Shown one piece after another: positions 13,572 through 15,392 of a stretch of DNA of 64,000 nucleotides. Source of the stretch: Bradyrhizobium sp. sBnM-33 (GTDB taxonomy: Bacteria > Pseudomonadota > Alphaproteobacteria > Rhizobiales > Xanthobacteraceae); the NCBI RefSeq assembly GCF_032917945.1, contig NZ_CP136624.1, positions 8,665,001-8,729,000 of the forward strand. The letters are read 5' to 3'. Both the position numbers and the translations under genes were made by a program. The stretch's first letter is position 1. Every line of letters starts with the position of its first letter. Under the pieces are notes generated by a model that did no database searches, had not been told where the DNA came from, and saw only the letters and a list, made by a program, of their open reading frames with translations.

Positions 13572-13756
13572 ACCACCCTCCAAAGGCGCAAGCCCTATGC
13601 CAAGCCTTTGATATTAGCCATGAATTAGATTTCGCCAAGCGCGAAGCGAGGGCGCACCATAATGGGTTTTGTGGCGAAGGGGAAATGGCATGAGAGGGGA
13701 AAAGACTGTTCAAGACGCGCGGCGTGGCCCTTCCACGTCATGTATGGACGGCCCCC

Positions 13757-14003
13757 TCTCGGCAAGGGCTTTTTGGTGCTTCGGCAATGGATCGGGGAGC
13801 GGTCATGTATACGGCCTCGAGAAGCGGCCATTGACCGCGGGCCCTGATGGAGATCGCGGATCGAATTCCAATCATTGCGGCGCGCTGTGACGCGCAATGA
13901 CGTGTCGGAGTGTTTCGATCCTGGTTTCCTGACCATTTGCCATCACACCTTAATTGCCCTTCCGATAGGGATGAGCGCGAGCGCGGCGGCTGTCGCCCTT
14001 CAA
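13757..14003 (-). ncRNA. Candidate bridge RNA region of the IS1111-type element
   Basis: Non-coding 3' end of the element. A stem-loop at 13871-13904 carries ATCATTGCG and CGCAATGACGTG, matching the REP target on both strands. Farther along, GTCATGTAT (13802-13810) repeats exactly the element's junction sequence at 13737-13745, and a six-base match to the other end (TGATGG) is near 13845. The order target-like loop then donor-like loop fits the bridge RNA described for IS110-family elements. That a transcript exists is inferred. Confidence 0.5.
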
Positions 14004-15035
14004 CTAGGCAGCAGCCGGCGCGCTCGCGCGGTCTCGGTAAACTTCTCCTTTGCTCAGCATGGCCCAGAGGATGCGCGCGGCTTTAGCGGCGAACGCCACC
14101 ATGGCGACCTTGTAAGGCCGCCGCGCCAAAAGATCGCGCAGCCACGGGTCGCTGACGCCGCGCCTCTTTTGCTGCCGCAGATGGGCGCTGGCTCCGCTGA
14201 TCAGCAGCGCGCGCAACATACGATCTCCCTGTTTGGAGATACGCCCTGGGCGATGCTTGCCGCCAGTACCGTGGTCCTTGCCGGTGAGCCCGATCCAGGC
14301 GGCGAAGTCCCGACCGGAGCGAAACACCTTCGCATCGGGCACTTTGGCCAACACCGTACTGGCGATGATCGGGCCGACGCCTGGGACTTCCATCAGCCGG
14401 CGCGCGTCCCGATCGCATCTGGCAGCCTTCGCGATCTGCCGTTCAAGCACGCGTTCATCGGCATTGAGCGCCTGCCAGTGCTGCGCCAGCATCAACAGAG
14501 CACATCGCATCATCTCCGGAATCTCTTCGCTCGGCTCCTCAAGCTTGGCCATCAGCTCACACAGCCCCTGATGTCCTTGCGCGGCCACGATCCCGAGCTC
14601 GCTCAGCGCTGCCCGCAAGGCGTTTGCCACCATCGTCCGCTGGCGAACCAGCAAGGCACGTGTGCCATGAACCGCCAGCGTGGCCTGTTGCTCGACGCTC
14701 TTCACCGGAACAAAGCGCATCGTCGGCCGGCCCACTGCCTCGCAGACACCTTCCGCATCCCGGCCGTCGTTCTTGTTGCGCTTGACGTAGGGCTTCACAT
14801 AGGCCGGCGGCATCAGTCGCACCTCATGGCCATAGCGCCTGATCACCCGGGCCCAATGATGTGCGCTCCCGCAAGCCTCCATGCCAACCAGGCACGGTGG
14901 CAACCCCGCAAAGAACTTCTCTACGGCAGCCCGCCTGAGCTGCCGCCTCAGCACAACCCTTCCCGATGCATCAATCCCGTGAACCTGAAACACGTTCTTA
15001 GCCAGATCCAACCCAATCGTGCTAATCTTCGTCAT
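14004..15035 (-). CDS. IS110-family transposase (IS1111 group)
   Basis: A 343-residue DEDD recombinase. The N-terminal RuvC-like domain has GLDLAKNVFQVHG (first Asp), MEACGSAHHWAR (Glu) and KNDGRDAEGVCEA (last acids). The C-terminal transposase_20 domain has EVPGVGPIIASTVLA and GLTGKDHGTGGKHRPGRISK, which includes the region of the catalytic serine. The frame is open upstream into the REP repeat; ATG at 15035 gives the family N-terminus. It looks intact, so the element may be active. Confidence 0.93.
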   Translation of the reverse strand: MTKISTIGLDLAKNVFQVHGIDASGRVVLRRQLRRAAVEKFFAGLPPCLVGMEACGSAHHWARVIRRYGHEVRLMPPAYVKPYVKRNKNDGRDAEGVCEAVGRPTMRFVPVKSVEQQATLAVHGTRALLVRQRTMVANALRAALSELGIVAAQGHQGLCELMAKLEEPSEEIPEMMRCALLMLAQHWQALNADERVLERQIAKAARCDRDARRLMEVPGVGPIIASTVLAKVPDAKVFRSGRDFAAWIGLTGKDHGTGGKHRPGRISKQGDRMLRALLISGASAHLRQQKRRGVSDPWLRDLLARRPYKVAMVAFAAKAARILWAMLSKGEVYRDRASAPAAA

Positions 15036-15110
15036 GGACGGTCCCCTTGTCTGGTTCGACTCAGCATCGCCAGTCTGGCACATCGATGCCGTTCGGGGGC
15101 CGTCCACCCC

Positions 15111-15205
15111 ATCATTGCGAGCGCAGCGAAGCAATCCACATCGGCGCCGGGACAGATGGATTGCTTCGCGGAAGCCTGTCATCGGGCGCGCGACCCGCGA
15201 TGACG
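15111..15205. repeat. REP repeat interrupted by the IS110-family element
   Basis: ATCATTGCGAGCGCAGCGAA leads into GCAATCC, then GGATTGCTTCGCGG to CGCGATGACG. This is a palindromic unit like that at 39455-39536 but lacking its first bases, which lie on the far side of the IS at 13733-13741. Confidence 0.8.
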
Positions 15206-15228
15206 TAGAGCGCCGAATCACCACAAGC

Positions 15229-15329
15229 CGTCATCCCCCGCGAAGGCGGGGGATCCAGTACGCCGCGGCCTCTCGATTCAGTACCAGCGCCTCTGGGATA
15301 CTGGGTCACCCGCCTTCGCGGGCGACGAC
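15229..15329. repeat. Intergenic palindromic repeat (GTCATCCCCCGCGAAGG type)
   Basis: The arms GTCATCCCCCGCGAAGGCGG and CCGCCTTCGCGGGCGACGAC enclose GGATCCAGTA and TACTGGGTCA. This is a second intergenic palindrome directly after the REP, filling the space before the lolC/E-like gene. Confidence 0.8.
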
Positions 15330-15392
15330 AGCCGGGTTCGGATCTTGCCGCAGCCTCTGCGGAGCGAGAGCAACGCTAAGGCCAGCGTGCCG

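Follow-up and report, generated by a model that had tools for sequence, protein, structure and literature searches.

The 3' non-coding region of an IS1111-group insertion sequence in Bradyrhizobium sp. sBnM-33 very probably encodes a bridge RNA (seekRNA), as judged by sequence comparison. RNA-guided elements of this sort have been known since 2024. The observed basis for this conclusion is the anatomy of the element, a conserved fold, guides that covary with the insertion sites and with the element ends, and seven copies at one type of site. A first-pass annotation of the window (the whole 64-kb stretch of DNA that was analysed) had proposed a bridge RNA here, and that reading is supported by a covariance model built without the window lineage, by compensatory changes and by base-by-base covariation of the guides, with the refinement that the RNA lies on the minus strand.

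Anatomy of the element and collection of relatives

The features are as follows, guides and RNA parts being named by their putative roles (coordinates are those of the window):

13741-15114, minus strand: whole insertion sequence, IS1111 group, 1374 bp; ends placed from the inverted repeats with the 7/3 extension rule, end sequences identical in 7/7 copies
14004-15035, minus strand: transposase gene, 343 aa; DEDD (D10, E53, D90, D93) and Transposase_20 domains, Thr257 at the nucleophile position
15108-15114, minus strand: left-end extension TGATGGG, 7 bp
15095-15107, minus strand: left subterminal inverted repeat GTGGACGGCCCCC
13744-13756, minus strand: right subterminal inverted repeat GGGGGCCGTCCAT, 12/13 identical to the left repeat
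13741-13743, minus strand: right-end extension ACA, 3 bp
15115-15121, minus strand: left target half CTCGCAA, end of a REP-like palindrome
13736-13740, minus strand: right target half TGACG
13785-13933, minus strand: putative bridge RNA core, covariance model R1 (window lineage excluded), 101.5 bits, E = 1.1e-25
13898-13904, minus strand: right target guide, RNA CACGUCA, pairing with the top strand of TGACGTG
13871-13879, minus strand: left target guide CGCAA, core UG and handshake bases AU, RNA CGCAAUGAU
13896, minus strand: derived base T (C elsewhere, RNA strand), in the window copy only (1/7), which lets both target guides pair mutually
13845-13852, minus strand: right donor guide, RNA CUCCAUCA, against the left end TGATGGGG, with one G-U pair; the match alone is not significant
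13802-13810, minus strand: left donor guide AUACA, core UG and handshake bases AC, RNA AUACAUGAC
13760-13765, minus strand: possible -35 box TTGCCG; CATGAT would complete the promoter once the ends join in a circle

The classification as an IS1111-type element given in the first-pass annotation fits in its domains, inverted repeats, 7-bp extension and 3' non-coding region. The protein, at 343 aa, lies within the 330-350 aa of the group and has the DEDD catalytic and Transposase_20 domains; it matches Pfam DEDD_Tnp_IS110 and Transposase_20 as well as the NCBIfam entry 'IS110 family RNA-guided transposase' (E = 4e-95). The inverted repeats are subterminal, with a 7-bp left extension, the target is not duplicated, and a long non-coding stretch, here of 263 nt (13741-14003), lies downstream of the gene. 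The 3-bp right extension, usual in the IS1111 group, is also present in the relatives. A TTG at the exact spacing of the possible -35 box occurs in 35/47 lineages (a raw count, with no chance control), and a junction promoter is described as demonstrated for ISEc11 (Siddiquee, 2024, PMC11187229).

At E ≤ 1e-125, close relatives were found in 3/265 genus genomes (the own genome, G056 and G210), 2/385 class genomes and 2/391 family genomes, the own genome being counted each time; the plasmid collection yielded one relative (55%) and the viral contigs six loci, and of the three of these given to the model (L137, L138 and L140) two match. The closest named relative is an element of Bradyrhizobium ivorense CI-1B (L022). 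A transposase match was found at 131 loci, and for 114 of these the inverted-repeat score was at least 9; removal of five loci whose repeats lack the motif and of ten at contig edges left 99 with readable flanks, and removal of 11 duplicates and of L086, with misplaced ends, left 87 loci, which form 47 clusters. Alignment A1 comprises 43 of these clusters: L076, L085 and L098 are without the exact donor string, and L071, whose hairpin looked duplicated, was left out. A close relative in another genome of the genus (L104) has a frameshifted gene and an RNA region that is unrelated after the first stem strand, with no match to the model.

A conserved fold on the 3' side of the gene

The non-coding region folds better than 200/200 shuffles (z -4.3). 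RNAalifold, applied to the 43-row alignment, returned 22 pairs, 16 of which show compensatory changes, and 95.4% of the pair cells are kept, as against 84.2% in shuffles and 27-37% with the partners slid; the fold is conserved among the relatives, as is characteristic of bridge RNAs. Model R1 was built from 42 alignment rows, with the window lineage left out. Searched against the window up to E 1, it matches at exactly one place, 13785-13933 on the minus strand, so that the covariance search suggested in the first-pass annotation finds the segment with a model from 42 other lineages (E-value above). The match is downstream of the transposase gene, not upstream as in the IS110 group (IS621 type). 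R1 also matches 87/87 loci (79 relatives and eight of the window lineage), 45 of which lie outside its building set, and at least 27 places in the own genome (150 of 6548 candidates scored). Weaker matches in the own genome, eight at 34-36 bits and one at 51.8 bits, are perhaps other IS1111 subfamilies or remnants. An Rfam search of 13600-15300 up to E 1 gave nothing above chance; mir-5366, at E 0.8, was under its gathering score.

Target guides follow the insertion sites

The first-pass annotation had noticed strings resembling the insertion site on both strands, and these stand where it placed them, ATCATTGCG at 13871-13879 and CGCAATGACGTG at 13893-13904. Their chance level was taken from 5000 dinucleotide shuffles of the non-coding region: the 8-nt top-strand match alone arose in 291/5000, the 12-nt bottom-strand match in 0/5000, and the two jointly, as in the window copy, in 0/5000; for a copy with the ancestral base, in which the matches are of 8 and 7 nt, the joint figure is 26/5000. 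The stem-loop at 13871-13904 that the annotation described is real here, but its unbroken stem and the 12-nt match exist only in the window copy.

The flanks of the relatives were read by the 7/3 rule, the junctions being inferred from the inverted repeats and not observed. Scored as summed longest matches between each RNA and its own target, 0/20000 permutations were as good (z 18, 47 clusters); in this crude whole-match test the own target was best-scoring, ties included, in only 28/47 clusters. Position by position, over the 43 rows, the left target guide agrees with left-flank positions LF-5 to LF-1 in 74-86% of cases, against 26-30% expected (z 7.0-8.7), and the signal stops sharply beyond them (LF-6, z -1.1; LF-7, z 1.4). 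The core in this guide covaries with the right-flank positions RF+1 and RF+2 (z 6.1 and 6.8). The right target guide covaries with RF+3 to RF+8 (z 3.6-6.0) and ends at RF+9 (z 0.4), with some signal at LF-1 (z 3.4), over the same 43 rows; its counts over all 87 elements allowed three registers and have no matching null. There are thus guides to both target strands, as in bridge RNAs, in the IS1111 order, with the top-pairing guide first.

As a guard against shared ancestry, nearest neighbours with different left targets were paired. Among the 87 elements, 29 such pairs speak for a joint change of guide and target, none against, and nine are ties (38 pairs); with one element per cluster, the co-variation of guides and sites that the first-pass annotation had put forward as a check is found in 22 pairs, with none against and one tie, and when the target is shifted by 5 bp as a control the figures become five for, nine against and nine ties. 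L132, 67% identical to the window element, has GGGCA both as left target and as guide, and its right guide fits only GTCA of the right target. The left-target match covers at most 2/5 positions in 4/87 elements. The annotation had named identical loops at different sites as an observation that would speak against guidance; three pairs (L018/L019, L020/L021 and L008/L017) do have identical guides despite different left flanks, but overall the guides covary with the sites. In L111, L112, L114, L120 and L123, a stretch of 10-12 nt in the target loop, adjacent to the right target guide, is the reverse complement of the left end, which may be a coincidence confined to one set of related elements.

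Putative donor guides and handshake bases

The first-pass annotation placed a target loop before a donor loop, and this order is correct. The 9-nt repeat that it reported, GTCATGTAT, occurs at both 13802-13810 and 13737-13745 as claimed, a repeat of this length arising in 6/5000 shuffles; it is the donor guide with the core and the handshake bases. The other donor match that it reported, TGATGG (13845-13850) with CCATCA (15109-15114), is present, but a 6-nt match alone is not significant, since it arose in 2771/5000 shuffles, and it rests on the comparison with relatives.

In that comparison, when only the fold decides where the left donor guide lies, the guide is identical to the right end from RE-5 to RE-1 in 87/87 loci; of these positions RE-4 and RE-2 vary, and their z-scores are 8.5 and 9.0 (47 clusters). 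The agreement of 43/43 at RE-3 to LE+2 is partly built in, because the alignment rows were cut by an exact donor-string match; the donor test still stands when all 87 rows are used and the fold alone locates the guide. For the right donor guide, covariation was found with LE+6 and LE+7 (z 5.7 and 4.3) and none at LE+1 and LE+2 (43 rows), and LE+8 is fitted in 33%. The RNA would thus have what is expected of a bridge RNA, putative donor-binding guides that match the element ends.

In the donor loop, the two bases that follow the core match the target more often than their own donor. They fit RF+3 in 37/46 clusters (36% expected, z 6.8) and RF+4 in 33/46 (63% expected, z 2.9), as against LE+3 of their own donor in 22/46 and LE+4 in 1/46; a recount on 47 clusters gave 37/47 (z 6.7) and 33/47 (z 2.8), and no signal was seen at RF+5 (z -0.4). 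Conversely, in the target loop the bases that follow the core match the donor at LE+3 in 40/46 and LE+4 in 31/46, against their own RF+3 in 22/46 and RF+4 in 15/46, which is agreement and not covariation, because LE+3 and LE+4 hardly vary. The contrast at RF+3 came to 22 for, one against and 12 ties with several copies per element counted, and to 14 for, none against and seven ties with one per cluster; at RF+4 it was three for, none against and 16 ties. The handshake counts cover 86/87 loci, L071 being left out. The same arrangement is named handshake guides in the account of IS621, where the covariation was on IS110 orthologues (PMC11208158). In the literature searched, which took in few subscription journals and no bioRxiv preprints, handshake guides of bridge RNAs came up in that paper alone, and no report of them was found for the IS1111 group.

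Genomic copies and the derived base of the window copy

The own genome, 9.18 Mb in one contig, contains seven near-identical copies of the element, all of which (7/7) have CTCGCAA on the left and TGACG on the right around identical ends; this type of site, CTCGCAA/TGACG, is one end of a repeated palindrome. Genome-wide there are 302 occurrences of the joined flanks, CTCGCAATGACG (149 on one strand and 153 on the other), with none of the backward-read control, and among the first hundred places listed they often form facing pairs about 60-145 bp apart, that is, both ends of a palindrome. At 15222-15335 of the window a second type of repeat, GTCATCCCCCGCGAAGGCGGGGG and its inverse, adjoins the REP-like one; it is also present in the flank of L015. 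That copy has a 22-bp deletion that runs through the stop codon into the first part of the non-coding region, and the model still finds the entire RNA core. Two other copies, L013 and L014, share an 8-bp deletion near the start of the transposase gene but lie in two different palindromes, so that a copy with a broken gene seems to have been moved in trans, or to have been converted.

The window copy differs from three other copies at a single base, 13896, where it has T for C on the RNA strand; at this position it differs from all six other genome copies and from the B. ivorense relative, and T is taken as derived because B. ivorense carries C. In the predicted free RNA, the T allele pairs both target guides together and closes the loop: the unpaired probability of the left guide is 0.52 at the first base and 0-0.02 at the other six, as against 0.04-0.98 for the common C allele, for which a more open target loop is predicted. 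The closed stem-loop was accordingly rejected as the family-wide form, being specific to the window copy and due to one derived base.

Proposed mechanism and alternative readings

We infer that the bridge RNA would be transcribed on the transposase strand and would bind the transposase. The element would excise as a circle, whose joined ends (right end ATACA, core TG, left end TGATGGG) would be paired by the second loop, and the transposase would catalyse its recombination into the ends of the repeated palindrome. In each 3' guide, the bases directly following the core match the other molecule more often than the one that their guide would bind; they would act as handshake bases favouring strand exchange.

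A different reading of the region would be a regulatory RNA or a cis-acting DNA structure, in which the target-like strings are incidental or were captured from the palindromic repeat. The REP-like sequence is frequent in this genome and the strings of the window copy do form a hairpin, as such a reading would have it. Yet relatives with unrelated targets carry those targets at the same RNA positions, for which reason capture from one repeat is ruled out as the cause, and the boundary between LF-5 and LF-6 is sharp; we consider this reading highly improbable. We give almost no credence to the proposal that the transposase protein alone chooses the target. The own genome by itself cannot separate choice by protein from choice by RNA, because the seven copies share both the protein (its gene broken in two of them) and the site, which is what choice by the protein would also produce. 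The pair L048 and L057 speaks against it: their transposases are 97% identical, whereas their left targets are GATTG and GCAAC, with the guides GTTTG and GCAAC.

The bridge RNA might also be genuine by descent while the window copy itself is inactive, its target loop sealed by the derived base. The T allele, present in one copy of seven, makes the target guides pair mutually and leaves the left guide mostly closed in the predicted free RNA. That prediction is for RNA without protein, however, and the protein may open the loop; the derived base also lengthens the match to the target, and outside that base the window copy does not differ from three others. An inactive window copy is thus conceivable, though we regard it as rather unlikely.

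A catalytic loop without serine

Ser241 of IS621 aligns with Thr257 of the window transposase, and the surrounding loop, GLTGKDHGTGG, retains the TG of the IS1111 motif GL-P----S(t)G and has G in place of P. The motif is reported as SG or TG (Siddiquee et al., PMC11187229), so threonine at that position is itself not new; the informative feature of the clade, read from its sequences, is that there is no serine anywhere in the catalytic loop. Of the 47 clusters, 29 have Ser at position 257, 17 have Thr and one has Arg, and 46 have Pro at position 252, Gly being found in the window lineage. Residue 256 is Ser in 97/114 loci and Gly in 17, these 17 being the window lineage: the B. ivorense element, counted twice, and the seven own places, each counted twice or three times. 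Ser256 was entertained as the nucleophile and is weakened as a candidate by L132, which has Asn at 256 and Ser at 257.

A protein search at E ≤ 1e-80 gave 7574 hits, of which the best 120, all at least 85% identical, were compared (108 by pattern, 12 by eye). Gly256 and Thr257 are present in 120/120; at position 252 there are 119 with Gly and a single one with Ala. The loop GLTG(K/R)DHGTGG is retained with few substitutions in these best 120 of 7574 homologues. Near-identical copies of the lineage, with Thr257, occupy seven sites in one genome. We put at about even the chances that this clade is an RNA-guided recombinase that would use a threonine nucleophile (Thr257), through a 5'-phosphothreonine-DNA intermediate, with IS621-like handshake bases in its RNA. 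A search of the literature on IS110 with threonine or phosphoserine found nothing but a Leuconostoc paper, judged by its title.

Relation to known systems and significance

The element resembles ISPa11 and other IS1111 seekRNA elements, as described by Siddiquee et al. (2024, PMC11187229), in its 3' non-coding region, subterminal inverted repeats, 7-bp left extension and unduplicated target, in the position of the top-strand-pairing segment 5' of the bottom-strand-pairing one and, with ISPa11, in its REP target; it differs from them in host, target and sequence, and in its loop, GLTGKDHGTGG, without the usual Pro and Ser. With IS621, as described by Durrant et al. (2024, PMC11208160) and Hiraizumi et al. 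(2024, PMC11208158), it shares a target loop followed by a donor loop, a two-base core, guides to both strands and a 3' guide with handshake bases at its 3' terminus. IS621, however, belongs to the IS110 group, its RNA lies upstream of the gene with the strand order reversed, its core is CT where the window element has TG, and its nucleophile position is occupied by Ser241 instead of Thr257. The B. ivorense CI-1B element has an 88% identical transposase with the same catalytic loop, guide bases and target end; unlike the window copy it has the ancestral C beside the right target guide, and its left junction is CGCAA/AGATGGGG, as against CGCAA/TGATGGGG in the window element.

ISPa11, ISPpu9, ISPpu10, ISRm19 and ISPsy7 are given as REP-associated IS110-family elements in PMC1525189, the text of which does not mention Bradyrhizobium. 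Searches for Bradyrhizobium IS1111 literature (judged on titles and the starts of abstracts) found nothing related, and for 'bridge recombinase' with IS1111 no literature was found. The reversed order between the groups, the 3' location, the copurification of seekRNA and its reprogramming are already published. The present analysis extends, at the level of single bases and from 43-47 sequence clusters, what nature shows of RNA guidance among IS1111-group elements, and it adds testable rules for many programmable recombinases: 5 nt on the left, a TG core, RF+3 to RF+8 on the right, donor guides and handshake bases. A covariance model is now available for an RNA that Rfam 15 missed here, as are near-identical element pairs retargeted by nature, and the serine-free loop makes it readily testable which hydroxyl is used by these enzymes.
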